A stretch of DNA of 64,000 nt, from assembly GCA_027014605.1 (NCBI GenBank), contig JALWDJ010000071.1, positions 29,761 through 93,760 on the forward strand. Direction: 5' to 3'. This document shows positions 39,156 through 53,537 of this stretch, piece by piece (the first letter of the stretch is position 1; each line of letters starts with the position of its first letter). This DNA comes from Campylobacteraceae bacterium (GTDB lineage Bacteria > Campylobacterota > Campylobacteria > Campylobacterales > Sulfurovaceae). Both the position numbers and the translations under genes were made by a program. Below the pieces are notes generated by a model that saw nothing but the letters and a program-made list of their open reading frames with translations, was not told where the DNA came from and ran no database searches.

Positions 39156-41066
39156 TTAACCCATAACTACAGCGATAGCTGAAGCTAATATTAACAATAC
39201 TGCACCTATACCCATCCAATTAAGATATGATGAGAGGTTACCATTTTGCATAACTCTTGCACTATCACCTGTTTTATAGATTACTTTTGCAATAAAGTCA
39301 ACAGTTGCATCAACTACTGCTTTATCTATAGCCCAGAATTTATCAGATATAACAGTATAAGGTTTAATAATGAACTCAACATAAAAAGCTGGAATATAGT
39401 ATTGATTCATAAGTAGTTTATAGAAGAAACCACTCTCAACTTTTTCATCCTGCTTAAATGCCTTATCACCCTTACGAGCATATTTCACATATGCAATAAG
39501 AATACCTGTTACTGCAAAAGCTAATACTAACAAACCTAACCACCAAGCGTTATGATGTGTATGATGACTCATCTCATAATCTGGAAGTAGCGTTGTGATA
39601 AACTCATGGAAACTACCTTGAAACCAACCCGCAATAACTGCTAAAATAGCTAATGGTGACATTGCAATTAATACATATCTATACATCTCATGAGGGTGGA
39701 AACCAAATTTTTTATATCTCTCTTCACCCTCAAATGTTAAAAATACCTGTCTAAAGCTATAGAATGCTGTAAGACCTGCTGTAAATACCAATGTAAACCA
39801 TAAAATATAAGTTCCCTCATTAAATGCTGTTTCAATAATTGCATCTTTAGAGAAATATCCAGCTAATGGTGGAATACCTGCTAATGCAAGTGATGCAACT
39901 CCCATATATAGATATGTTCCTCTCATTACCTTTTTAAGTCCACCCATCTTAAATATATCAAGCTCATCATCCATAGCATGCATAACATTACCTGCACCTA
40001 AAAATAATAATGCTTTAAAAAATGCATGAGCTGCAAGGTGAAAGAGTGCAATCCAATATGCACCAAGTCCAGCTGCTGCAAACATATATCCTAACTGCGA
40101 TAGTGTAGAGTATGCAATAATTCTCTTTAAATCTCTATTGACTAATGCCATAGATGCTGCAAAAAAAGCTACAAATGTACCAAGTGCTGCAATAAAGTAG
40201 CTAACATTTGAGACTGCATCTAAACTATATAGAGGATTAGCTCTAATTACCAAAAATACCCCTGCTGTTACCATTGTAGCTGCATGAATTAATGCTGAAA
40301 CAGGAGTTGGACCCTCCATTGCATCTGTTAGCCAAGTATGAAGTGGGAATTGAGCTGATTTACCCATCGCACCAATAAATAGAGCTATTGCAATAGCTAC
40401 TAAGATACCATCTGCTAGATGAGGTAACGCTTTAAATACTACATCGTATTGTAGAGAGCCTACATTCCAATAGATTAAAAATATTCCAACTAACATACCA
40501 AGGTCAGCAATACGGTTCATAATAAATGCCTCATTTGCTGCATAAGATGGAGAGATAGCAGGATTTATATCTGGTGTAACATCTTTTTTGTGATACCAAA
40601 AACCAATTAGTAACCAAGAACAGACACCAACTCCTTCCCAACCAATAAATAATCCAGCAAAGTTATCACTCATAACTAAAACCATCATTGAGAATACAAA
40701 TGCAGATAGATATGAGAAGAACCTATTAAAACTCTTGTCATTGTCCATATAACCATTTGAATAAACATGCACTACTGTTGATACTGTAGTAACAACTACC
40801 ATCATAGTTACACTAACCTCATCAACTACAAAACCAAATGGAATATGTAATGCCCCAGCACTAATCCAATCCATCATGGTTACATGAATTGCACCATGTT
40901 CTGCTACATGAAATGCTAATGCAACTGATGCTAACCAAGAGATAAAGATAAGAGCAGGATTTACAATACCTACAATAATATTTTTAGGACTTCTTGCAAA
41001 AAATAATCCAGCAAATAGTGAACCAACAAAAGGTGCAAAGAGTGCTATATATACCAATTTTTCCAT
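39156..41066 (-). CDS. nuoL: NADH-quinone oxidoreductase subunit L
   Basis: The distal antiporter-like subunit, 636 residues, with the long C-terminal lateral helix region. Typical segments are FFSYLSAFVFSMMVLVMSDNFAGLFIGWEGVG, AMEGPTPVSALIHAATMVTAG and RIIAYSTLSQLGYMF. It starts four bases after nuoK. Normal length for the family. Confidence 0.96.
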   Translation of the reverse strand: MEKLVYIALFAPFVGSLFAGLFFARSPKNIIVGIVNPALIFISWLASVALAFHVAEHGAIHVTMMDWISAGALHIPFGFVVDEVSVTMMVVVTTVSTVVHVYSNGYMDNDKSFNRFFSYLSAFVFSMMVLVMSDNFAGLFIGWEGVGVCSWLLIGFWYHKKDVTPDINPAISPSYAANEAFIMNRIADLGMLVGIFLIYWNVGSLQYDVVFKALPHLADGILVAIAIALFIGAMGKSAQFPLHTWLTDAMEGPTPVSALIHAATMVTAGVFLVIRANPLYSLDAVSNVSYFIAALGTFVAFFAASMALVNRDLKRIIAYSTLSQLGYMFAAAGLGAYWIALFHLAAHAFFKALLFLGAGNVMHAMDDELDIFKMGGLKKVMRGTYLYMGVASLALAGIPPLAGYFSKDAIIETAFNEGTYILWFTLVFTAGLTAFYSFRQVFLTFEGEERYKKFGFHPHEMYRYVLIAMSPLAILAVIAGWFQGSFHEFITTLLPDYEMSHHTHHNAWWLGLLVLAFAVTGILIAYVKYARKGDKAFKQDEKVESGFFYKLLMNQYYIPAFYVEFIIKPYTVISDKFWAIDKAVVDATVDFIAKVIYKTGDSARVMQNGNLSSYLNWMGIGAVLLILASAIAVVMG

Positions 41067-41070
41067 TCTA

Positions 41071-41373
41071 TTACCCCCTCATTGTTGATATTATATCTAA
41101 ATCTAGCGTATGGTATTTTTTATAAAGTACAATCAATAGCCCCAAACCAACAGCTACTTCACTAGCTGCAACTGCGATGATAAAAAAGGCAAACATTTGA
41201 CCTGATAAATCACCATAATAATTACCAATTGCTGCAAAAGCGATATTTACTGCATTTAACATCACCTCTGTGGCAAAAAATAGCATTAGAAGATTTTTTC
41301 TTCTAAGCACACCCATAAATCCTATACTAAACAGTAGTCCTGACAGTATAAGATAGTGACTAATACCTATCAT
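41071..41373 (-). CDS. nuoK: NADH-quinone oxidoreductase subunit K
   Basis: NuoK is a three-helix membrane subunit, 100 residues, with the two conserved membrane Glu residues (in FATEVMLNAVN and AASEVAVGLGL) needed for proton translocation. It overlaps nuoJ by four bases and precedes nuoL by four. Confidence 0.96.
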   Translation of the reverse strand: MIGISHYLILSGLLFSIGFMGVLRRKNLLMLFFATEVMLNAVNIAFAAIGNYYGDLSGQMFAFFIIAVAASEVAVGLGLLIVLYKKYHTLDLDIISTMRG

Positions 41374-41948
41374 CTGCTCTCCTTTTTTAAAATCTCATCT
41401 TCACTCTCTTTATCTACTAGAGGTAGTACAGTAGTTGTTAAAGATTTATCCATCTTCTTACCTGCTAAGATAATACCTGCAACCATTGCAACAAGAAGCA
41501 TAATAGCAGCTACCTCAAATGGAACTAAATATTTTGTAAATAAAACTATACCAACAGCTTGTGCATTACCTACGCCATCAGTTATAGGAGATGCTACTTG
41601 AATATTCTCTCCTATAATTGGTGCAGAGAATATAATTACAAATACAACTGCCATAAGTCCACCAAGTAGAAATACTAATTTTGGATTATTATATTTCTCT
41701 TTAACATCTTTAGTTGTATCAAAAAACATCATTGCAAAAGCATATAGTGCCATAACAGCACCAACATATACAATAAGTTGAACAACACCTAAAAAGTCTG
41801 CTCCCAAAAGGAAGAAAAATCCTGAAATCATCACCATTCCTGCAGCTAATGAAGTCATAGCATAGAGAACATTTTTACTTAAAACCGTAATCAAAAACAG
41901 TATCACTGTAGATATTGCAAAGATATAAAAGGCTATAAACTCATACAT
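41370..41948 (-). CDS. nuoJ: NADH-quinone oxidoreductase subunit J
   Basis: The 192-residue membrane subunit has about five helices. LGVVQLIVYVGAVMALYAFAMMFF is the family signature. The C-terminus is a charged cytoplasmic tail (VDKESEDEILKKESR). It overlaps nuoK by four bases. Confidence 0.94.
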   Translation of the reverse strand: MYEFIAFYIFAISTVILFLITVLSKNVLYAMTSLAAGMVMISGFFFLLGADFLGVVQLIVYVGAVMALYAFAMMFFDTTKDVKEKYNNPKLVFLLGGLMAVVFVIIFSAPIIGENIQVASPITDGVGNAQAVGIVLFTKYLVPFEVAAIMLLVAMVAGIILAGKKMDKSLTTTVLPLVDKESEDEILKKESR

Positions 41949-41962
41949 TTTATCTCTCCTCC

Positions 41963-42586
41963 TTAATACGCTAAAGGCGTTTTTTTGATATTATCATCAG
42001 CATTCGGGCTAATAGCACCAAAACCTTGATACTCTTTTTGAAGATTTAGTTTATCAATAGGAGTTAACATATCTTCAAATAGAGAGAAACTTGCTCTCTG
42101 TTCAGATGCAGTCTCATATCTTCCTCCATGAACAATGGCCAACTCTGGACAAACCTCTGCACAATATCCACAAAATATACATCTACCAAAATTAATTGTA
42201 TATTCACTAACCTCTTTTCTCTGGTTCTCATCATATCTTGTCTCCATACTAATACAGTTAGAGATACAAATTTTTTCACAGAGTCCACACCCGATACATC
42301 TATAATGTCCACTCTCTAAGAGTCTTAACATCTCATGGATAGCTCTATATCTAGGACTAATTGGAAGTTTCTCTAAAGGATACTGTGTTGTGTGCATTTT
42401 TCCTCTAAATAGAGCATTAATCATCTCTCTTAGAGTTACCCAAAGTCCAATACATAACTCAGGCTTAAATGTTCTTGATACTACCTGCTTAAATCTATCC
42501 CAACCACTCTTTGGAGGGTGAGTTAAATCTAGTTTTTTATAATTTTGTGTTCCGATATTTCTATCTTTAAACTTTTCTAAACCCAT
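41963..42586 (-). CDS. nuoI: NADH-quinone oxidoreductase subunit I
   Basis: NuoI carries clusters N6a and N6b that lead electrons from NuoG to NuoB. The 207-residue protein has two complete ferredoxin motifs, CIGCGLCEKICISNC and CIFCGYCAEVCPELA. An N-terminal stretch of about 70 residues can lie on the membrane arm. It has slightly longer N- and C-terminal parts than E. coli NuoI (180). It lies between nuoH and nuoJ. Confidence 0.96.
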   Translation of the reverse strand: MGLEKFKDRNIGTQNYKKLDLTHPPKSGWDRFKQVVSRTFKPELCIGLWVTLREMINALFRGKMHTTQYPLEKLPISPRYRAIHEMLRLLESGHYRCIGCGLCEKICISNCISMETRYDENQRKEVSEYTINFGRCIFCGYCAEVCPELAIVHGGRYETASEQRASFSLFEDMLTPIDKLNLQKEYQGFGAISPNADDNIKKTPLAY

Positions 42587-42595
42587 TACTACTCC

Positions 42596-43606
42596 TTATC
42601 CTGCCATCATCACGATACCTGTGATAACAACATTTATAACTGCCAATGGCATTAATACTTTCCAACATAGCCACATAAGTTGGTCTGGTCTAACATGAGG
42701 CCAAGCAGCTCTTACCCATAACATAAAGAAGAAAGAGAATGCAATCTTAGCAAGTATCATAATCCAACCTGGGAAAATCCACCAATCATTATATCCACCA
42801 AGAAATACAATAGATGCAATAATTCCAATAGTAATCATATTAGCGTACTCACCAATAAAAAACATTCCCCATCTCATACCACTATACTCTGTAACATAAC
42901 CAGATACAATCTCTGCTTCATGCTCTAATAGGTCAAATGGTGTTCTATTTGTCTCTGCATAACCTGCAATTAAAAATAGAATAAATGCTACAGGTTGATA
43001 TACAACTAACCAAGTTCCATCAGATTGATAGTTATTAAAGTCCACAAAAGATAGAGAACCAACTAACATAATTGGAGCTAAAAGAGACAATCCTGTTACA
43101 ACTTCATAACTCAAAAACTGTATAGCTGTTCTTGCACTACCTAATAATCCCCACTTATTTGATTGAGCCATACCTGCTAATAGAGGTCCATATAAACCTG
43201 CTGCCATCATTCCAAGTACAAATAAAATCCCAACATTAACATCAGATGCTATTGATGGAACATATACATCTACAAGTGGAATTGTAAAATCAGGAAATAC
43301 AGGAACTGCTCCAAGAGCAATAAAGGCAGTCGCTGCTGTAATTGCAGGAGCAACTGCAAATATTAATCTATTTGCATGTTGAGGAATAATATCCTCTTTT
43401 GTAAATAGTTTAATACCATCGGCTGCTAGTTGAAGTAACCCATAAGGCCCTACATGTTGTGGACCTAATCGTCTCTGCATAAATGCAAGTACTTTTCTCT
43501 CAATATAAGTACCAAATCCTGCTATGGCAGATATTATTGCTAAAATTAAAATAGCTTTAATAATAACACCAACAGCAGTAACCTCTGGTAACATTGTTGC
43601 ATCCAT
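42596..43606 (-). CDS. nuoH: NADH-quinone oxidoreductase subunit H
   Basis: NuoH forms the quinone chamber with NuoB and NuoD. The 336-residue protein has eight or nine helices; ERKVLAFMQRRLGPQHVGPYGLLQLAADGIKL and the loop AETNRTPFDLLEHEAEIVSGY are diagnostic. It follows the second nuoG by one base. Confidence 0.97.
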   Translation of the reverse strand: MDATMLPEVTAVGVIIKAILILAIISAIAGFGTYIERKVLAFMQRRLGPQHVGPYGLLQLAADGIKLFTKEDIIPQHANRLIFAVAPAITAATAFIALGAVPVFPDFTIPLVDVYVPSIASDVNVGILFVLGMMAAGLYGPLLAGMAQSNKWGLLGSARTAIQFLSYEVVTGLSLLAPIMLVGSLSFVDFNNYQSDGTWLVVYQPVAFILFLIAGYAETNRTPFDLLEHEAEIVSGYVTEYSGMRWGMFFIGEYANMITIGIIASIVFLGGYNDWWIFPGWIMILAKIAFSFFFMLWVRAAWPHVRPDQLMWLCWKVLMPLAVINVVITGIVMMAG

Positions 43607-43607
43607 T

Positions 43608-45941
43608 TTATACCTCCCTTATAATTACTTTTTGGTATCTTGAAGCTCCAAAGAGTTCATAGATATTTTTATCACTCTTAAAGTCTGGAACAGCAACTAT
43701 ATCACCATCCATTCTCTCATCAATTTTAACATCAAGCTCTAAATTGCCACTGTCAAACTCAACTACAACTCTCTTACCAAGGGCTTCTGCTCTTTTTGGA
43801 CTTGCATATAGTGCAAACTCCTCAAATATCTGATGAGCCTTATTGGTAAAGTCACTAAATTGTCTCTGAGGATTACATCTATATGCAATATCTCCATCTA
43901 AAGCAATATTTTCATCAAACTTATCAACATCTATCTCTTTAGCCTCACTAGTTATCTCTGTAAGTAGATAACCTCTATTTTCTGTTCCATCATTACTATA
44001 TCCATTTGGAAGTGAGTCAAAATCAATAGATTTAAAACCTTTATTTATAGGTAATTTAGGTGTCCAATCAATAGTATATTTAGTTGGAATATTTAGTAAC
44101 TCTTTTACTATATCATGTAAAGTATAACCATTATATTCAAGTGCTACATTGGTAGGTGTGACTCTTTTATGCATATTGGTTAGAGTTCCCTCCTGTTGGT
44201 TCATAGCAGGAGCATCTAAATCCCCATCTCCAAGAGCTGAGAATTTAAAATCACCTAAAGCATTATATCCAATAGTATAACCCTTAGCCTCATCATCAAG
44301 GTCACAAATTAGTGCTACACCAAGAGAATTTGTCTTTGGAGGTATCATAGCTACCTTAATAGGTGAAGTCTTCTCTAAAATAGTAATCAATTTTACAATA
44401 TTTTTTGCTTTTGGGTGGAAATATAAATCCTCTCCAACTATTAAAGAGAACTTCTCTTTCTTCTTCATAATTTTACTGAATGAGGCTTCAAATTTACTAT
44501 CTCCACCTAGAAGTTCAACAAGTTTTTCTCTATCTAACTGCTCTTTAACTATATCTGGTAACTCATCTTTATTGCTAAATAGCTCTATGAGAAGAAGTAA
44601 AACAGCCTCTTCATGTCCAACTTTATGAGCAAATGTTAAGATATTTCTACCAAATGTAGGCACTAGAGTATCTCCTACAGGGTGAAAATAGAGTCCTGCT
44701 CCTTTATTCATCTTTTGAACATTATTAAAAGCATATCTTGCATTTGGATTATCATTTCTTAGACTTGTTCCAAGACTTATAACAAAATCACTAGCCATAA
44801 TCTCTTTAAAGTCCAAGCTATATAGTGATTTTCCACTATACTGCTTATAGAAATCTAAAAATATCTGAAATGCTCTAGCTTCACGATTAATAAGTTTAAC
44901 TCCAAGCTTCTCTTTTAGAGTCTGTAGCATTAGAGCCTCTTCATTTGTAATAACAGATGTAAAGTTGATAACTTTTGCCTTTTTAAATGCCTCTATAGCT
45001 CTTTTAAATGCCTCTTTATCTTTTTTTACCTCTCTATTTTCAAAATCATACCCAAATCTACCAGCTCCACATAGAGATACATAATTCCACTCATTAGTAA
45101 CTCTATAAATCTTCTCTCTTCTATCACTAATAGATGTAGGCTTAGTCTCATAATATATCTGACACCCACTACTACAGTGAGCACAAGTGGCAGGGATTTT
45201 CTTTAAATCCCACGCATTTGTTGTATATTGGAAATCTCTACTAACTAATGCACCAACAGGACATACAGCTATACACTCTCCACAATCAGAACAGTTTGTA
45301 TGCTCTGTTCCATTACTTGGTGCAATAATAGACTTTTGAAGTTTATTCCACATAGCATAAGCATCTTTTGGCATACTACCTTTTAGACTCTTATCTAATG
45401 CAGAACCACCTCTTTTTGTTGTTTTGATAGCTGAGTCACCTATCATATCTTTACATACAGTAGTACATCTCTCACACACAATACATAAACCTGCATCATA
45501 GTGAAGAACACTACTCCAATTTTTTGTCTCTCGTTTTGTATCTGGAATTGAGTAACTTTGTGAGTCAACTGCTAGTTCAAGTGTATAGTTTTGTAACTCA
45601 CACTCACCACTCTGGTCACATACTCCACACTGAAGAGGGTGATTTACATCATAAACCTCCATAATGGCTCTTCTCTCCTCTAGGATATTTGGAGTAGTTG
45701 TTACTATCTCCATACCCTCTTTAACTCTAGCATTACAAGAGTAAACCTGTTTTCCATCTGCTTCAACTAAACATATCCTACACGCAAGTGTTGGTGAACA
45801 TCTTGTTAAATAGCAGATAGCAGGGATAAAGATGTCATTTGCTCGGGCTGCATTTAGGATATATTCACCCTCTTTAGCCTTATACTCTTTTCCATCTATT
45901 GTAATGCTAATCATGTTTTTTACTAGTTCTATTTCACTCAT
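43608..45941 (-). CDS. nuoG: NADH-quinone oxidoreductase subunit G, second paralogue (NuoG2)
   Basis: NuoG is the iron-sulfur subunit that passes electrons from the input module to NuoI. This copy (777 residues) has the N1b-type set Cys43, 54, 57 and 69, the N5 set His101, Cys105, 108 and 114, and two ferredoxin-like motifs (Cys153-156-159-163 and Cys217-220-223-227). The N7 set Cys253, 256, 260 and 291 is complete. The C-terminal half is the molybdopterin-type domain without cofactor residues. It follows NuoG1 by one base. It has one more cluster motif than its neighbour. Confidence 0.92.
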   Translation of the reverse strand: MSEIELVKNMISITIDGKEYKAKEGEYILNAARANDIFIPAICYLTRCSPTLACRICLVEADGKQVYSCNARVKEGMEIVTTTPNILEERRAIMEVYDVNHPLQCGVCDQSGECELQNYTLELAVDSQSYSIPDTKRETKNWSSVLHYDAGLCIVCERCTTVCKDMIGDSAIKTTKRGGSALDKSLKGSMPKDAYAMWNKLQKSIIAPSNGTEHTNCSDCGECIAVCPVGALVSRDFQYTTNAWDLKKIPATCAHCSSGCQIYYETKPTSISDRREKIYRVTNEWNYVSLCGAGRFGYDFENREVKKDKEAFKRAIEAFKKAKVINFTSVITNEEALMLQTLKEKLGVKLINREARAFQIFLDFYKQYSGKSLYSLDFKEIMASDFVISLGTSLRNDNPNARYAFNNVQKMNKGAGLYFHPVGDTLVPTFGRNILTFAHKVGHEEAVLLLLIELFSNKDELPDIVKEQLDREKLVELLGGDSKFEASFSKIMKKKEKFSLIVGEDLYFHPKAKNIVKLITILEKTSPIKVAMIPPKTNSLGVALICDLDDEAKGYTIGYNALGDFKFSALGDGDLDAPAMNQQEGTLTNMHKRVTPTNVALEYNGYTLHDIVKELLNIPTKYTIDWTPKLPINKGFKSIDFDSLPNGYSNDGTENRGYLLTEITSEAKEIDVDKFDENIALDGDIAYRCNPQRQFSDFTNKAHQIFEEFALYASPKRAEALGKRVVVEFDSGNLELDVKIDERMDGDIVAVPDFKSDKNIYELFGASRYQKVIIREV

Positions 45942-45942
45942 A

Positions 45943-48177
45943 TTAGCTTCCTACTTTCTCTAATCTATTAAATCTATAAGAGGATAACAAAGCCGTACTT
46001 AAGCCCATATCATAGGTTGGATTAAGTGCTATTGTTCCCTTTAAAGATGTATCAATTTTAAACACTCTACTAAACTCAATATTATCAATTACAAATTTAA
46101 CTCTGTTACCATCTTTTAGTTTTGCAGCTATTGCAAACTGCTCTGAACCCAATAAATTAGGCTCATTTTTTAATATTTTAGATATAGCTGTAAATGGAGA
46201 GAAGTGTTCTTGTGGATTACAGTTATATATAACAGCTCCATCAATCCCCTCAAACTCCAAAGGCTCTTCTATGCTATTGTCTATATCTGTATTGATTTCA
46301 GATAAGATATAACCTCTATTCTCTTCTCCTGTAATAGAGTAGTTATCTGGTAAACTATCAAACTCAATATTTTTAAATCCACTCTCTAATGGTAACTCTT
46401 TTGTATACTCTATAGTATATTTAGATTTTAGACCTAACTCATTTGCAATATCATTTAGTATATATCCACCATAATCTAAGGCTACATTTATAGGAACAAC
46501 TCTTTTATCTATCGAGGTTAAAGTTCCCTCCTGTTGGATTAGTGAAGGCATATCTAAATCTCCACCACCAAAAGCAGACAAAGTAAAGTCACCCTTTACA
46601 TTATAGCCTATAGTTTTACCCTTAACCTCATCATCAAGTTCACATATTAAAGAGATACCCATTCCATTTCCAGCAGGTGGAGTAGCTATTAGATTAAATC
46701 CTGCATACTTCTCTAATAGAGCTAAGAGTTTAGCAATATTTTCTGCTCTGGGGTGAGAGTATAAATCTGCACCAATAACTAAAGAGTATCTATCTTTTTT
46801 AATAAGGGATTTGGTTAAATCCTCTAACTCCTCTTCACCAATATTAGTTTCAGCAGATAGATTTCCAATATCAAGTTCATTTAAAATATCTCTAATCTCA
46901 TTAGGAACTTCTATATCTCTAAGAAGTGTATCAGCTAGTAGTGCTGATACCCCCTCTTCACTCCCTGCATCATACTTAATAAATTGAGTAACAATATTAG
47001 ATATATTACTATCTTCAATTGGGTGCATATAGATAACTCTAGCTCTATTGTGTTTACTAGCCATATTTATGCTATATTTTACCAATGGAGCATCATCATT
47101 AACTCTAGTTCCCACAATAATAATAGCTTCTGATTTACTAAGAGTCTTTAAATCTCCTCCATAGAGTTTTTTCCCCGTGATTTTACTATAGGCACTCATA
47201 AATTTCTGATATGCTCTTGCCTCATAAGAGATTAATCTATAACCCTTAAGCTCTTTTAGCTTTTGAAGAATTAGAGCCTCTTCATTAGATATCTCATTAG
47301 CAAATATTATACTCTCTGCACTATTAAATGCCTCAATAGCTCTACTAAAAGCTTTAGTATCTTTTGTTACATTCTCATTTGCAAAATCAAATCCATATCT
47401 ACTAGCACTACACATAGTACTAAACTCTGCTTCATTAGATACTCTATAGATTTTGCCCTTTTTAACCTCATAGATAACATCATGTCCACCTCCACAGTGT
47501 GGGCAAGATGATGGGATTTTAGTTAACTCCCAAGCGTTAGATGAATATTTAAAATTAGTATCTACTAATGCACCAACAGGACAGACTGAAGCTGCCTCTC
47601 CAAGAGTCGCAAAGTTTTTATCTTTTTTTACATTCTCAATAGTTGAGCTATATCCACCAAACTTAACCTTTAATGCCTCATCTCCTGTAATCTCTGTTGA
47701 TACTCTAACACACTTCTCACACATAATACATAGAGATGGGTCATAAGATACATATCCCCAATTCTCAACTGGACGAGCCATATCTTTTGCTGTAAAAGTT
47801 TGAATATCTACCCCAAACTCCATAGTTTTATTTTGTAAATCACACTCACCACTCTGGTCACACACACCACACTCTAGTGGGTGATTTACATTATAGAGTT
47901 TCATAATATTTTGTCTCTCTCTATATAGCTCCTGATTTTGAGTTGTAATAACAGCTCCATCGGTTGCTTTCTCTTGACAAGAGAGTATAAACCCATCAAC
48001 CCCTTTAACCTCTACAACACACATACGACAAGAGGCTATTGGTAGCACTTTAGTTAAATAGCACATAGTTGGAATATATATACCATTCTCTCTTGCTATC
48101 TCTAATATAGTCTGTCCAAATACCCCTTTACACTCTTTTCCATCTATAGTGATTGTTATATCTTTTAAACTACTCAT
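45943..48177 (-). CDS. nuoG: NADH-quinone oxidoreductase subunit G, first paralogue (NuoG1)
   Basis: A second NuoG (744 residues) in tandem with the one at 43608. N1b (Cys39, 50, 53, 67), N5 (His99, Cys103, 106, 112) and N4 (Cys150, 153, 156 and the distant Cys199 in CPVGAL) are present. The N7 set is changed: Cys225, Cys228, then His232 where the other copy has Cys, then Cys256. The second ferredoxin motif of NuoG2 is absent. The ATG at 48177 (MSSLKD) shares one base with the preceding stop (TAATG); an ATG at 48216 would run 13 codons into the upstream gene. Sequence similarity to the downstream copy shows a duplication. Confidence 0.92.
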   Translation of the reverse strand: MSSLKDITITIDGKECKGVFGQTILEIARENGIYIPTMCYLTKVLPIASCRMCVVEVKGVDGFILSCQEKATDGAVITTQNQELYRERQNIMKLYNVNHPLECGVCDQSGECDLQNKTMEFGVDIQTFTAKDMARPVENWGYVSYDPSLCIMCEKCVRVSTEITGDEALKVKFGGYSSTIENVKKDKNFATLGEAASVCPVGALVDTNFKYSSNAWELTKIPSSCPHCGGGHDVIYEVKKGKIYRVSNEAEFSTMCSASRYGFDFANENVTKDTKAFSRAIEAFNSAESIIFANEISNEEALILQKLKELKGYRLISYEARAYQKFMSAYSKITGKKLYGGDLKTLSKSEAIIIVGTRVNDDAPLVKYSINMASKHNRARVIYMHPIEDSNISNIVTQFIKYDAGSEEGVSALLADTLLRDIEVPNEIRDILNELDIGNLSAETNIGEEELEDLTKSLIKKDRYSLVIGADLYSHPRAENIAKLLALLEKYAGFNLIATPPAGNGMGISLICELDDEVKGKTIGYNVKGDFTLSAFGGGDLDMPSLIQQEGTLTSIDKRVVPINVALDYGGYILNDIANELGLKSKYTIEYTKELPLESGFKNIEFDSLPDNYSITGEENRGYILSEINTDIDNSIEEPLEFEGIDGAVIYNCNPQEHFSPFTAISKILKNEPNLLGSEQFAIAAKLKDGNRVKFVIDNIEFSRVFKIDTSLKGTIALNPTYDMGLSTALLSSYRFNRLEKVGS

Positions 48178-50189
48178 TATACAGCCACCATCGATATGTA
48201 GTAACATCGCATACATCGCTCTGCTTCTGCTATCGCCTCTTGACCAGTAAATCCAAGATTTACCTCTCTATTGTTTGTTTTTCGCTCATCAACACCTAAC
48301 TTCTCACTAACTTGTCTAGGAATGTTTGGCATCCAACCTGTAATCTTCTCATTTTTATTATAAACTTTTAATTTAGAGAGGTGGTCTTCCATAATCTCAT
48401 CATCAGTTAGAGTACATTTTCCACCATTATATAGATAACGACTAATTACAGAGGCAGCCCTTTTTGCTTGACCAACTGCATTTACAATAGTCATAGGACC
48501 ATATTCGCAATCTCCCCCTGCAAAGACTCCATCTTTTGATGTCATATAGTCTTTACCATTAGTTAAGATTGTACCCCAAGAGGTTAGTTTCATATCCCAC
48601 TCCTCTGGTAAAAGTTGTAAATCAGCAGATTGAGATACAGCAGGGATTAAGTAGTCACACTCAATCTCAAAATCAGCACCCTCAATCTTAACCAATTGGG
48701 CCCTTCCACCATTAGGGTCTGGAACTAACTCAAATTTATTAACTTTAAGCTTCTCTATACGCTCTCCATTATCAAAAATCTCCTCTATTGATGAGTGGAA
48801 TATAAACTCAACCCCCTCTTCAACAGCCTCATGATACTCCTCATAGGTTGTATTTCTAATAATGGTCTTCTCATCTCTTCGATAGAGCATAATAACCTTT
48901 TTAGCTCCTTCTCTAATGGCACATCTTACAACATCCATAGAGGTAAATCCACCACCAACACAGACAACAACCTTATCTTTAAGCTCATTACTAGCAGGGC
49001 TTCCAATACCGTACTTATTCCAGAGATTTACCTTATCAAGCATATCAATAGCACCCCAATATCCACCCATTTTAGGGTTCTCATTTTTGGCACGAACTTT
49101 TTTAGATAGTCTTGTTCCAAATCCTAAAAAGGTTGCATCATACTCTGCTTCAATCTCTTTAAGTCTATTGGCATCAACTCTATGGTTATTATATATAGTA
49201 ACTGCTTCCATCTCAAGAACTAAATCTATATCTTTTTGATATTTACTAATCGGCATTCTATATTCAGGTACACCCACAGCTACCTCTCCACCATTTACAG
49301 GTAACTCTTCAAAAATATCAACCTTAATCCCCTCTAATGCTAAATAGTAGGCTACTGTAAGTCCAGCAGGTCCTGCTCCAACTACAGCTACCTTTTTTCC
49401 ATCATTTTTAAGAGGTTTTGGGGGATATGGATGTTGCCAACCTAATCCATGGTCTGTCTCATAGTCTGCTCCAATTCTCTTTAACTCCATAATAGAGATA
49501 GGTTCATCAAGATTTGCTCTTCTACAAGCATCTTCACATGGGTGAGGACAGACTCTCCCACATGTATGAGCTAGTGGCATGGTCTGTCTTGTAGCACTTA
49601 GGGAGTCAGCAAATAACATATCTCTAACCCCCTCAATATATGCAGGAATATCAACATGTGCAGGACACATATCTGTACATGGTGCTGTTATCTTTGCAAT
49701 ATATGAAATATCCCCATTATAGTGTTTTGATGGAATTTGTGCATCAATACATCTATCAAACTGCTCTTTATAATACTCCATTAAATCTAAAATAGGTTTA
49801 GGAACAGTCCTTCCAATCTCACACTTAGAAGTAGTCATCATTGTTTGACTAATCTCTTTTAGATGTGCAATATCATCATGACTCCCCTCACCTCTAGCTA
49901 TTTTGTCGAGTAAATCATATAGGATTTTTCCTCCCCATCTACCTGGTGCACACCGTCCACACGCTTCAGAGTACTTTTGATACTGTGAAGCATATTGGTT
50001 TGCCAACTCAACAGCATCTATATCTTCATCAAAAATGGCTACACCATCCCAACCTATAAATGCTTTTGAATTTTTCTCTCCATGATAAGTCTCTGGCAGT
50101 TTAAATCCTGACTCACTCCACTCATTAGATGATTTACCTCTATTATCAATAAATTCACCCTGCCAAGTAGAGAAAAGTAGTTTTGCCAT
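48177..50189 (-). CDS. Hybrid NuoF-type Fe-S / GltD-like FAD-NAD(P) oxidoreductase
   Basis: The 670-residue protein stands where NuoF should be. Residues about 60-145 resemble the NuoF C-terminal [4Fe-4S] (N3) domain, but the motif is CGRCAPGR, with Gly83 where the third ligand Cys is expected; Cys77, Cys80 and Cys123 remain. From about 165 it is a GltD-like glutamate synthase small-subunit protein: Cys motifs CTDMC and CGRVCPHPCEDAC, an FAD site VAVVGAGPAG at residue 268, and an NAD(P) site VCVGGGFTSMDVV at 409. The NuoF FMN/NADH domains are absent. It lies between the NuoE-like gene and nuoG. A role as electron-input subunit taking NAD(P)H or reduced ferredoxin/flavodoxin electrons is inferred. 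Confidence 0.8.
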   Translation of the reverse strand: MAKLLFSTWQGEFIDNRGKSSNEWSESGFKLPETYHGEKNSKAFIGWDGVAIFDEDIDAVELANQYASQYQKYSEACGRCAPGRWGGKILYDLLDKIARGEGSHDDIAHLKEISQTMMTTSKCEIGRTVPKPILDLMEYYKEQFDRCIDAQIPSKHYNGDISYIAKITAPCTDMCPAHVDIPAYIEGVRDMLFADSLSATRQTMPLAHTCGRVCPHPCEDACRRANLDEPISIMELKRIGADYETDHGLGWQHPYPPKPLKNDGKKVAVVGAGPAGLTVAYYLALEGIKVDIFEELPVNGGEVAVGVPEYRMPISKYQKDIDLVLEMEAVTIYNNHRVDANRLKEIEAEYDATFLGFGTRLSKKVRAKNENPKMGGYWGAIDMLDKVNLWNKYGIGSPASNELKDKVVVCVGGGFTSMDVVRCAIREGAKKVIMLYRRDEKTIIRNTTYEEYHEAVEEGVEFIFHSSIEEIFDNGERIEKLKVNKFELVPDPNGGRAQLVKIEGADFEIECDYLIPAVSQSADLQLLPEEWDMKLTSWGTILTNGKDYMTSKDGVFAGGDCEYGPMTIVNAVGQAKRAASVISRYLYNGGKCTLTDDEIMEDHLSKLKVYNKNEKITGWMPNIPRQVSEKLGVDERKTNNREVNLGFTGQEAIAEAERCMRCYYISMVAV

Positions 50190-50605
50190 TATTTACCCTT
50201 TTTTTTAGCTGTTGTAGCTTTTTTTCTTATAGTTGTCTTTTTAGTAGATGTTTTTTTACTATCCTCTTTAGTTTTAATCTCTGCCTCTTGGTCAGATTTC
50301 ACCTCTGCTTTAGCTTTAGCCTCTGCCTTCTCTTTATCTTTCTTCTCTTCTTCTTTTCTTTTTGCAATAGTTTTAGCATCTACCTTTTTTACAACTATTG
50401 TCCAATCAACCTCATTAAATTTTAGTGAGTTCATAAGCTCATGTCCCAACTCTTTAATAAAGTCAGCACTCTTTTGAATAGATGAGTAGTCACCAACCTC
50501 AAAGAGAAAAATTCCAACCTCTCCCACTTTTAGATTGTTATTAATAAGTTCACCCATTCTACTATAGAAATCATCATGTAAATGTCTTAAATCATATCTC
50601 TGCAT
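50189..50605 (-). CDS. Short NuoE-like protein with Lys-rich tail
   Basis: The 138-residue protein occupies the nuoE position. Its first 95 residues (RYDLRHLHDDFYSRMGEL, GEVGIFLFEVGDYSSIQKSADFI, NSLKFNEVDWTIVVKKV) match the Campylobacter Cj1575c-type proteins annotated as complex I subunit E. The four Cys that bind the [2Fe-2S] cluster in true NuoE are absent, so no cluster is expected. The rest is a Lys/Ala/Glu/Thr-rich tail that can be disordered or helical. Its stop touches the start of the NuoF/GltD hybrid. Flavodoxin or ferredoxin docking is a guess. Confidence 0.75.
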   Translation of the reverse strand: MQRYDLRHLHDDFYSRMGELINNNLKVGEVGIFLFEVGDYSSIQKSADFIKELGHELMNSLKFNEVDWTIVVKKVDAKTIAKRKEEEKKDKEKAEAKAKAEVKSDQEAEIKTKEDSKKTSTKKTTIRKKATTAKKKGK

Positions 50606-50617
50606 ACTCTCTCCTCC

Positions 50618-51847
50618 TTAACGGTCAACTTCACCAAATACAATATTAGTAGAACCAATAATTGTAACAACATCTGCTATATAAGTACCTACTAAAAGCT
50701 CTTGAAGTAGCCCTGTATGGAAAAATGATGGGGCCCTACACTTTAATCTATATGCGTAAGGTTCACCCTCTGATTTAATATAAAATCCAAGCTCTCCCTT
50801 TGGTGATTCTGTTGGAACATAGACTTCACCCTTTGGTGGTCTCATACCTTGAGTTACCAATACAAAGTGTTGCATTAGTGCATAGTTTTGTGTCATAATC
50901 TCCTCTTTTGGAGCAGATATATATTGTGGAGCATGTGCCATAAGTTGAGGTTCCGTCTCATCATATTTAACAATAAGCTGTCTAATAATCTTTGTTGACT
51001 CCTCCATCTCTGCCATATATAATCTATATCTTCCATAGCTATCATTAGTATCAGCTATAGGAATATCAAAATCTAACTCACTATATAACTCATAAGGCTC
51101 TTCTTTTCTAATATCATAAGCAACTCCACTACCTCTTAACATAGGTCCTGTACAGCCCCAACTAAGTGCATCTTTACTTGATAGTACACCAACATTCTCA
51201 AGACGCATTTTCCAAATTCTATTTTTCTCTAAAAGTGCATTATATGTGTGCTTTAACTCATAATCAACCTTATCACACCACTTTCTAAGTGCTATCATCC
51301 AACCATCTGGAATATCCAATGGAACACCACCTATTCTTACTGCACTATGTGTAAGTCTAGCTCCACAATAGTCCTCCATCAAGTCCATTCCAAACTCTCT
51401 CTCTCTAAATGCATATAGGAAAACTGACATTGCTCCAACATCTAGTGCATGTGTTGCAATAAAAAATAGATGAGATATTATTCTATTAACTTCAAGTAAA
51501 ATAGTTCTAATCACTTGAGCTCTTCGTGGTACTTCAAGTCCAATTAACTTTTCAACAGCTAAAGCATAAGCATAATTATTCGATGTTGATGCTATATAGT
51601 CTAGTCTATCTGTTGTAGGAAGAAATTCATTATATGTCATATTTTCAGCCATCTTCTCAATACCACGATGAAGATATCCAATATCTGGATAAGCTTTTAC
51701 AACCTTTTCACCATCAAGCTCTAACATAAGTCTTAATTGTCCATGAGCTGATGGGTGTTGAGGTCCAAAATTTATTACCATTGTATTATCTTCTCGTTCA
51801 AAATTGAGATTTTCAAAAAATGGGGATAGTCTATTTGGTTGTTGCAT
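50618..51847 (-). CDS. nuoD: NADH-quinone oxidoreductase subunit D
   Basis: NuoD (49-kDa) forms the quinone site. The 409-residue protein has [33 protein letters not shown], and the C-terminal [39 protein letters not shown], all diagnostic. It is separate from NuoC (unfused). An Arg in this subunit is the target of the MidA homologue in mitochondria; a midA-like gene is at 16625. Spacing to neighbours is about 12 bases. Confidence 0.97.
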
Positions 51848-51859
51848 ACTCTACTCCTC

Positions 51860-52648
51860 CTACTTTCTATCTTCTAATTGTGTCTGAGACGCATTATAAT
51901 CAACTAAGAATGTAGTACTATACTCAATTGGTGTCTCTGGTTCACCATTACTAATATCTGCACCAAATGGTACTTCTCTACCAACTCTTGAAAATCTTTT
52001 AGTATCATATCTATCAATTCTAGCTGGGTCTCTATTTTCTGGTCCAATTGCCTCTCTAGCATCTTTTCCAAAAATCTTATCAACCTCATACCAAGAGGCA
52101 AACTCATCACCTTGAAGAGGATATGTTTTAAGTAGTGGGTGTCCCTCCCAATCATCTGGCATAATAATTCTCTTTAGGAATGGGTGATTATTCACTACAA
52201 TTCCAAACATATCAAACATCTCTCTCTCTGCAAAGTTTGCAGCTTTATATAAAGGAACTATAGACTCAACTGCTAAACCCTGCTCTATCCTACATACAAC
52301 TCTGACTCTCTTTCGCTCTTTAAGATTTAGTAGTTGATAAAATACCTCAAAAGTACCATCTTTTGCTAAATAATCAACAGCACTCATCTCACTCATCATC
52401 TCGTAACCACACTCATTTTTAAGTATCTCTATTGCCTTGTAGTTATCTTGATGATTAATCTCAACTCTCATCTGACCCACTTGAATATAAGCTGATTTTA
52501 TCTCAACCTTACTACTTAAAATCTCTAACTGTTTTGAAAAAATCTCATCTGTGCTAACATCTTGTGTTGGAACAGATGGGACTACATGAAATCTATCTGT
52601 ATAGTAAGCCTTTTTCTGAACACTATCTTTTGGAACATATTTTCTCAT
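51860..52648 (-). CDS. nuoC: NADH-quinone oxidoreductase subunit C
   Basis: NuoC (30-kDa) is part of the peripheral arm. The 262-residue protein is separate from NuoD. EREMFDMFGIVVNNHPFLKRIIMPDDWEGHPLLKTYPLQG is the diagnostic segment. A long N-terminal part precedes it and a C-terminal tail of about 70 residues follows. Its start shares one base with the nuoB stop. Confidence 0.95.
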   Translation of the reverse strand: MRKYVPKDSVQKKAYYTDRFHVVPSVPTQDVSTDEIFSKQLEILSSKVEIKSAYIQVGQMRVEINHQDNYKAIEILKNECGYEMMSEMSAVDYLAKDGTFEVFYQLLNLKERKRVRVVCRIEQGLAVESIVPLYKAANFAEREMFDMFGIVVNNHPFLKRIIMPDDWEGHPLLKTYPLQGDEFASWYEVDKIFGKDAREAIGPENRDPARIDRYDTKRFSRVGREVPFGADISNGEPETPIEYSTTFLVDYNASQTQLEDRK

Positions 52649-53166
52649 TATATTAACCTTAGATTTTGTTTTTTATTTTTATTCATATTAGCAGACTCTT
52701 TTCTAATCTTCTTTTGAAGCATCATTAAAGCATACTGTAGAGTCTCTGGGCGTGGTGCACACCCTGGAAGATATATATCAACAGGTACAATTCTATCAAC
52801 TCCTTGAACTGTTGCATAGGTATTAAACATTCCACCTGTATTTGCACAACTCCCCATAGATATAACCCATTTAGGCTCTGTCATCTGGTCATATAATCTT
52901 CTTGCAAACTCTGCATGTTTTTTAGATAGAGTCCCTGCTAATATCATAACATCTGCCTGTCTTGGAGATGCTCTAAAGATAGTTCCAAATCTATCAAAAT
53001 CATAACGGCTATCTCCTGATGCCATCATCTCAATGGCACAACATGCAAGACCATAAGTTAAAGGCCATAAAGAGTTACTTCTCCCCCAATTTATTAAATG
53101 GTCAACTGTAGTAAGTGCTACTGGCAGACCTCCTGCTGATGCGTAATTTACTTGATGCTGTGCCAT
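52648..53166 (-). CDS. nuoB: NADH-quinone oxidoreductase subunit B
   Basis: NuoB carries cluster N2, the last before quinone. The 172-residue protein has the tandem Cys motif [10 protein letters not shown], the third ligand in [11 protein letters not shown] and the fourth in LPGCAPRPE. Its start lies inside the nuoA end (19-base overlap). Confidence 0.97.
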
Positions 53167-53537
53167 TCAAGTGCTCCTTTCTTCCATGCGTAAATAAATC
53201 CAACTGTTAAAAGTAAAATAAATAGTATCATTTCTGCAAATCCAAACCAGCCAAGTAGTTTAAAATCTATTGCCCAAGGAAACATAAATATAATCTCCAC
53301 ATCAAAAAGAATAAATAGAAGTGCTATTAAATAGAACTGTGTTGAAATTGTATTAGGTTGTTTAGTAACCTCTGGTCCACACTCATAGATTGTTAGCTTT
53401 AACTTCTCAGTATCAAGCTTTGCCAATTTTCTACTTATCAATCGAGCTAGAAATAGCGTTGCATTAAACGCACCTACCGTTACGATAAATAAGAAGAAGA
53501 TACCTAAGTAGGGGTGATTGTTAATCACATGAGTCAT
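53148..53537 (-). CDS. nuoA: NADH-quinone oxidoreductase subunit A
   Basis: This small membrane subunit has 129 residues and three helices. [41 protein letters not shown] is the family core, including the Cys-containing loop that senses quinone-site state. It is the first gene of the operon; the promoter must lie in the 225-base region upstream, where I see no clear -10. Confidence 0.95.

Follow-up and report, generated by a model that had tools for sequence, protein, structure and literature searches.

A putative NADP(H)-linked input module of complex I in Campylobacterota, built around a GltD-type fusion protein

How do sulfur- and hydrogen-oxidising Campylobacterota, with a complex I that lacks NuoEF, obtain low-potential reductant for the reductive tricarboxylic acid (rTCA) cycle? 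The question is raised by a nuo operon in a 64,000-nucleotide stretch of DNA, referred to below as the window, from a Campylobacteraceae bacterium (assembly GCA_027014605.1, contig JALWDJ010000071.1, positions 29,761 to 93,760). Directly before its two nuoG genes the operon carries a gene (48177..50189, minus strand) for a protein of 670 amino acids (aa), in which an iron–sulfur (Fe–S) domain similar to that of cluster N3 in NuoF is fused to a flavin adenine dinucleotide (FAD)–NAD(P) module of the GltD/StnC type. We put at roughly 0.6 the probability that this fusion, together with the adjoining nuoX and nuoG1, forms the electron-input module of the complex, a port for nicotinamide adenine dinucleotide phosphate (NADP(H)) replacing the NADH-oxidising NuoEF. 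A head of this type would offer a concrete, testable answer to the question above.

The fusion protein and the absence of NuoEF

The fusion gene, delimited in the open reading frame (ORF) list of the window and characterised by Pfam, alignments and AlphaFold, starts with ATG and has no internal stops. Its product matches three Pfam families, namely PF10589 (NADH_4Fe-4S) at residues 65–146 (6.8e-20), PF14691 (Fer4_20) at 169–247 (1.8e-22) and PF07992 (Pyr_redox_2) at 265–575 (1.2e-25), and gave no match to PF01512 (Complex1_51K), the flavin mononucleotide (FMN)/NADH domain of canonical NuoF. On the minus strand of the window the N3-like domain occupies 49752..49997 and the Fer4_20 domain 49449..49685, both placed by Pfam and alignments; the FAD and NAD(P) Rossmann domains (about residues 265–587, from Pfam, alignment and fold), with the motifs GAGPAG, GGGFTSMD and YRRDE, lie at 48429..49397, and a C-terminal RCMRC segment (residues 633–664, from alignments) at 48198..48293. 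An N3 domain at about residues 60–145, followed by a GltD-like remainder with GAGPAG and GGGFTSMDVV, had been read from the sequence in a preliminary description of this DNA; the Pfam boundaries and the start of the two motifs at residues 271 and 412 bear this out.

The AlphaFold2 model of the fusion (33 sequences) reached a mean predicted local distance difference test (pLDDT) score of 79.5 and a predicted template modelling (pTM) score of 0.78. It is weak at residues 213–232, 607–622 and 660–670, around the Fe–S ligands, so that the cluster geometry could not be judged. The closest solved folds are those of StnC/NfnABC (9bov_A, 8oh5_C, 9n5u_A), followed by NfnI, GltD of glutamate synthase and DPD, and a sequence search of solved structures returned much the same set (phmmer, 283.5 bits to 9bov_A). 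No curated GltD-type model was reached, the best 25 of 45 NCBIfam matches all lying below the cut-off. The genome has another GltD-type match, a 468-aa frame on a different contig; GltB was not searched for. Homologues of the fusion are deposited as 'FAD-dependent oxidoreductase', 'formate dehydrogenase beta subunit' or 'glutamate synthase [NADPH] small chain' (P0005, P0008, P0033, P0065 and others), names that hide its complex I setting.

Both ends of the fusion gene overlap a neighbour by TAATG, with nuoX upstream (50189..50605, minus strand) and nuoG1 downstream (45943..48177, minus strand). The product of nuoX (138 aa, with a Lys/Glu-rich tail) had been called NuoE-like in the preliminary description. 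It matches PF16514 only (3.7e-39), the family of Helicobacter pylori HP1264 (2LXR), and is not a thioredoxin-type NuoE. HP1264 is described as having no conserved Cys and an IF3-like fold, and as binding FMN (PMC6269979).

The genome of the organism comprises 1.98 Mb in 97 contigs and is given as 99.99 % complete. The claim that no NuoF FMN/NADH domain is encoded in the operon stands and can be widened, since PF01512 has no match anywhere in the 1.98 Mb. PF10589 has one match, the fusion itself, and a NuoF hidden elsewhere in the genome was accordingly rejected. For the NuoE family (PF01257) the single match in the genome is a 132-aa frame below the cut-off, which falls short of a canonical NuoE; a separate full-length nuoF and nuoE outside the operon, which the preliminary description had singled out as fatal to its proposal, were thus not found by these profiles. 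The searches with PF01512 and PF10589 also revealed no StnB/HydB-type partner in the genome.

The fusion had further been presented as the most system-like novelty in the window, but the same two-part protein occurs in 33 of 150 genomes of the class, spread over several families (counted from the listed matches, with G041, where two pieces belong to one 733-aa frame, counted once). A scan of contigs yielded 250 relatives, the 80 kept being mostly labelled Sulfurovum, and the best 120 of 7224 hits of a homologue search were close kin only. With 33 of 150 genomes and the 80 relatives kept of 250 all having the fusion, a private oddity or an assembly artefact of the window was rejected. The proposed search for the fusion between the supposed NuoE-like gene and nuoG was also run on a synteny sample of 110 loci (80 + 30, including the window copy L081; 108 distinct by their last 600 residues). 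The adjoining nuo gene upstream is nuoX in 106/106 loci and the adjoining gene downstream is nuoG1 in 109/109, the neighbour falling outside the sequence in four and one locus, respectively. The nuoX family (PF16514) is present in 119 of the 150 genomes, including all 33 with the fusion. The proposed input module is lineage-typical and apparently transferable.

PF01512 proteins were found in 18 of the 150 genomes, four of which (G007, G117, G134 and G060) also have the fusion, and the absence of PF01512 is therefore no rule for all fusion genomes. Those of G134, G007 and G117 (loci L180, L181 and L141) are 545–548 aa long, a HydB-like size, and are accompanied in the stretches of L180 and L181 by a short NuoG-like frame; all three are possibly the diaphorase of a hydrogenase or formate dehydrogenase. 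In L183, L184 and L185 (G122, G060 and G061) a second nuo operon of canonical appearance, with PF01512 and NuoA/B/D matches, was observed in genomes that carry the epsilon type as well.

Conserved ligands and the predicted electron donor

Residue conservation was followed in 110 rows, i.e. the window and 109 of the 110 loci (the window sequence being present twice and L075, cut at 580 aa, dropped), and in a second, more diverse set of 31 rows. In the N3-like motif, CGRCxPGRWGG, Cys77, Cys80 and Cys123 are invariant in the 110 rows. The third canonical N3 cysteine is replaced by Gly83 in 110/110 and 31/31 rows, the following Arg84 and Trp85 varying in the diverse set; in all 11 PF01512 proteins compared, out of the 18 found in the class, the equivalent residue is Cys. 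The earlier designation as an N3-cluster domain is thus right as to the family, PF10589, and has to be qualified as to the ligands, for the window reads CGRCAPGRWGG instead of CGxCxPCRxG and one canonical ligand is missing. The three-Cys site could possibly hold a [3Fe-4S] cluster or, with a ligand other than Cys, a [4Fe-4S] cluster. The fusion arm accordingly shares with a canonical NuoEF head the N3-type domain and the position before nuoG, but has neither the FMN/NADH domain nor a thioredoxin-type NuoE and is one N3 cysteine short.

In the GltD module Cys171, Cys175, Cys210, Cys214, Cys218 and Cys222 are present in 110/110 rows, and Cys659 and Cys662 in 109/110, the lone gap belonging to a cut locus (L058). 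Lys237, found in every row of both sets, aligns without gaps to Lys170 of StnC, which is reported as a ligand of the cluster beside the non-bifurcating FAD, NfnB having Glu there (PMC10482914). In the Nfn-type chains compared (4ylf, 5vj7) the position is likewise Glu, and the Glu ligand at the proximal [4Fe-4S] cluster that marks bifurcating NfnB is absent from the fusion. The RCMRC segment follows the Rossmann domains in the fusion and in StnC, whereas it precedes the Fe–S domain in the Nfn-type chains. An invariant arginine, Arg311, is equivalent to both StnC Arg239 and NfnB Arg201 and has no discriminating value.

The known system closest to the fusion is StnC of the Stn/NfnABC complexes (8oh5, 9bov, 9n5u), with the same GltD module, C-terminal RCxxC, lysine at the proximal cluster and FAD/NADPH fold, and likewise wired to NuoG-type Fe–S domains. 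In StnC, however, the NuoG domains are part of the same chain, which feeds a soluble, bifurcating FMN module. In the fusion the GltD part is joined to a NuoF-type N3 domain within a membrane complex I operon, the NuoG subunits are encoded by two separate genes, no PF01512 protein that could make up a StnA/StnB-like FMN module was found in the genome, and Cys114 of StnC corresponds to Ile181.

Where the second Rossmann strand ends, basic residues are a usual sign of NADPH, and the fusion has an invariant YRR there. Cys410, Cys423 and Cys561 are also invariant in the nucleotide-binding domains, as is Phe415.

NAD(P)H, ferredoxin and bifurcating chemistry had all been named in the preliminary description as conceivable inputs. 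The sequence points to NADP(H), given that the nearest folds are StnC/NfnABC, NfnI, GltD and DPD and that YRR is invariant, and away from bifurcation, given the StnC-type Lys237 and the StnB/HydB-type partner not found in the genome. In the opposite case the module would be electron-confurcating or -bifurcating and NADPH, at the FAD of the GltD module, would be combined with ferredoxin, at an extra cluster of NuoG2, or with FMN of NuoX in one quinone-linked circuit. The nearest folds do come from bifurcating complexes, HP1264, a relative of NuoX, has been reported to bind FMN (PMC6269979) and two NuoG subunits could form two branches; nevertheless, with a lysine of the kind that stands beside a non-bifurcating flavin and no StnB/HydB-type partner found in the genome, such a circuit seems improbable. 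The input module is predicted to be non-bifurcating and NADP(H)-linked.

NuoG1, NuoY and the two operon forms

Forty stretches of class genomes were taken, most of them around nuoX and one or two per genus. The window, 32 of these stretches and 13 loci hand-picked from L001–L080 gave 46 operon rows, the partial operon L188 being left out. Two gene orders were observed, nuoABCD-X-fusion-G1-G2-HI (form A) and nuoABCD-X-Y-G2-HI (form B). A full-length NuoG1 is encoded in 31/31 operons with the fusion and in 0/15 without it, and there are no mixed rows (the 508-aa NuoG1 of L179, cut by a contig end, was counted as full, and L154 as having no full NuoG1). At the level of genomes, a NuoG-type match stands directly beside the fusion in 33/33 cases, and among the genomes without the fusion 40 had a match at E ≤ 1e-60, a second NuoG frame being found in none of them; these are counts from the listed matches, in which the two matches of G122 are one frame and the 77 genomes without a match at that threshold say nothing. 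On a tree of nuoBCDHI, with the very long branch of L182 as outgroup, there are four changes between the forms, and fusion and NuoG1 agree in 4/4 independent pairs.

NuoG1 has the Cys of N1b, N5 and N4 in 31/31 rows, and in the window its Fe–S cysteines end by residue 269. NuoG2 was aligned in 43 of the 46 rows (the stretches of L079, L154 and L179 have no frame of at least 700 aa); it has the Cys of the same three clusters in 43/43 and an extra [4Fe-4S] set in 42–43/43, in both operon forms. Form B has a short NuoY of 235–350 aa in 14 of its 15 rows (L153, L155, L157–L163, L167, L176, L177, L187 and L189), none being recognised in L154. All 14 match the NuoG1 profile exclusively within positions 330–510 and 594–750 of 751, the region downstream of the Fe–S cysteines of NuoG1, with scores of 61–218 against 4–80 for the NuoG2 profile. 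In the tree NuoG1 groups with NuoY in a single clade, apart from NuoG2 (support 100/100). NuoY corresponds to the C-terminal part of NuoG1, without the Fe–S ligand positions, and not to NuoF. The Cys positions in 12 unaligned NuoY frames vary from row to row. The NuoY of L167 groups weakly (80/62) beside the NuoG1 of its own family; a single origin of NuoY is disfavoured by the approximately unbiased (AU) test (p 0.034), weakly so in view of the long branches in family f2.

This bears on proteins that have been named otherwise. The NuoX of L155 is identical to the 2LXR sequence over 74 residues, and together with the gene order this suggests that the NuoY of L155 is HP1265 or a near copy. HP1265 is annotated as NuoF in H. 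pylori (PMC3561388), and Cj1574c is described as a nuoF replacement that mediates flavodoxin entry (PMC4178425). The protein at the HP1265 position, and probably also Cj1574c, would then represent the tail of an additional NuoG, and models of flavodoxin entry into NuoXY-type complexes would have to change. The earlier comparison with Campylobacter, presumably our family f3, holds in that NuoEF is absent; the relation is closer than was thought, NuoY matching the C-terminal part of NuoG1. In Campylobacter and Helicobacter the epsilon-type complex I with NuoXY has the same operon order, with a PF16514 NuoX between nuoD and nuoG, the same NuoG2 and no NuoEF; the difference is that a short NuoY stands where the window has the fusion and a full NuoG1. 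Where the module was lost, NuoG1 would have been reduced to a tail devoid of Fe–S ligand positions, and loss of its Fe–S half along with the fusion would be expected of a subunit that conducts the electrons of the fusion.

The rTCA cycle needs reduced ferredoxin, a requirement that would suit an arm serving mainly as a ferredoxin or flavodoxin port, as in the Campylobacter type, with the GltD module as a docked ferredoxin:NADP+ reductase bleeding electrons to NADPH. The extra [4Fe-4S] set of NuoG2, kept with and without the fusion, fits such a port, and flavodoxin or ferredoxin use has been reported for the epsilon type (PMC6682613, PMC4178425, PMC4585668), in which nuoXY are said to replace nuoEF, probably for this purpose (PMC6682613, PMC4585668). 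It would, however, leave the joint keeping or loss of full NuoG1 and the fusion unexplained, and we hold it to be a tentative alternative, well behind an NADP(H) port in likelihood.

A further line of evidence comes from L074 (6001–8007 and neighbours), a metagenome contig labelled Sulfurospirillum and free of N runs. Its NuoA–D, NuoG2, NuoH and NuoI match fusion-less loci of family f10 best, whereas for its fusion and NuoG1 the nearest locus is L066, labelled Nitratifractor, with identities of 80 and 63 %; L074 also groups with L066 in the NuoG1 tree (99/97). NuoX of L074 scores highest with L066 (76 %), L049 and L174 following within 3 bits and the f10 NuoX sequences ranking 16, 26 and 27 of 45. 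It therefore appears that a Sulfurovaceae-type fusion and nuoG1 came together, probably with nuoX, into a Sulfurospirillum-type nuo operon. That the GltD-like module is the input arm, as first proposed, thus gains from the synteny, the shared fate with nuoG1 and the mosaic operon, with the correction that the arm appears to consist of three genes. The same observations, along with the N3-like NuoF domain, the constant position and the TAATG overlaps on both sides, speak against a separate soluble oxidoreductase that merely shares the operon. Such an enzyme would be compatible with source names like 'formate dehydrogenase beta subunit' and 'glutamate synthase small chain', and membership of the fusion in complex I is a prediction from genes, yet we think such a separate enzyme very improbable indeed.

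Going one step further, nuoX-fusion-nuoG1 may be a transferable cassette that makes the pump a menaquinol:NADP+ reductase (NADPH:menaquinone in the forward sense), supplying rTCA Campylobacterota with NADPH by reverse flow; in Helicobacter and Campylobacter the flavodoxin-type complex I would then be the same enzyme after loss of its head, NuoY being a decapitated second NuoG. To this wider proposal we give even chances. If true, complex I heads would be seen moving as cassettes in nature. Among the papers listed in the literature searches none was seen to describe a GltD fusion within a nuo operon, nor NuoY as a part of NuoG, although an earlier mention may exist; the glycine in the N3-like site, the co-occurrence of fusion and nuoG1 with NuoY as a cut-down nuoG1, and the mosaic operon appear to be new here.

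Electron path, autotrophy and the other genes of the operon

In the NADP(H) port as we envisage it, electrons would pass between NADP(H) and the FAD of the GltD module, two [4Fe-4S] clusters, whose ligands could be supplied by eight invariant Cys and one Lys, and the three-Cys N3-like cluster, and onward through N1b/N5/N4 of NuoG1 to NuoG2, NuoI and menaquinone. Ferredoxin or flavodoxin may be handled by the extra cluster of NuoG2, as has been suggested for the Campylobacter type. We infer the cofactors, NADPH specificity, direction, stoichiometry and path from gene content and residues. In these autotrophs the pump would run mostly backwards, the proton motive force driving electrons from menaquinol to NADP+ for the rTCA cycle. 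Judged by midpoint potentials, this transfer has to climb about 0.3 V, which four protons per electron pair could cover. PntB was not found in the genome; other routes of NADP+ reduction were not searched for.

ATP-citrate lyase (PF16114) is present in 38 of the 150 genomes, that of the window included, and in 30/33 fusion genomes versus 8/117 others. The Fisher test p was not used because relatives are not independent, and the link to autotrophy, which is not phylogenetically independent, is suggestive only. Several observations weigh against the NADP(H) port or its autotrophic role. Three genomes (G007, G117 and G041) have the fusion without the lyase and eight the lyase without the fusion (six of family f4, which lack nuoX, as well as G061 and G109); over four pairs, on average 1.7 changed the same way, 0 the other way and 2.3 showed no difference. 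The nuoG1 link comes from four independent pairs (p 0.125). In every row Phe415 (GGGFTSMD) occupies the place that Asn/Asp has in the usual GGGN/D motif, and nucleotide binding may be altered as a result; with Gly for the third N3 Cys, passage of electrons through the N3-like site is a supposition. L074, being a metagenome contig, may be a mosaic of assembly, and its NuoX is not clearly assigned.

Altered complex I heads have been described elsewhere. Nautilia is reported to lack nuoE, F, G and K (PMC2628731), and Nitrospina NUO-2 to contain a NuoF2 without FMN, together with an additional NuoG cluster, and possibly to serve ferredoxin (PMC3578206). NUO-2 of Nitrospina and Kuenenia resembles the present operon in combining an altered NuoF with an extra NuoG cluster in complex I of ferredoxin-using autotrophs; it is set apart by its NuoF2, to which the passages seen ascribe an NADH binding domain besides ferredoxin-like clusters, with no mention of a GltD module.

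The remaining nuo genes of the window are all on the minus strand. Upstream of nuoX (assigned by Pfam) lie nuoD, nuoC, nuoB and nuoA (50618..53537; nuoD was identified by Pfam and the remaining three from sequence). Downstream of nuoG1 (by Pfam and alignment; its start in the ORF list is 39 bases further upstream) follow nuoG2 at 43608..45941, with the Cys of N1b, N5, N4, the extra [4Fe-4S] set and N7 (Pfam, alignment), nuoH at 42596..43606 (named from sequence and position), nuoI at 41963..42586, with 4Fe-4S ferredoxin-type domains (Pfam), and nuoJ, nuoK and nuoL at 39156..41948, named from sequence and not profile-tested. The window NuoG1 has S, F, L and A at 173, 202, 205 and 208 and so misses the extra [4Fe-4S] Cys set, which is present in 21–22 of 31 NuoG1 rows, and its third N7 Cys is His245. 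NuoX, with a domain of 74 residues, ranges from 73 to 332 aa, counted from the conserved start in 86 measurable loci.

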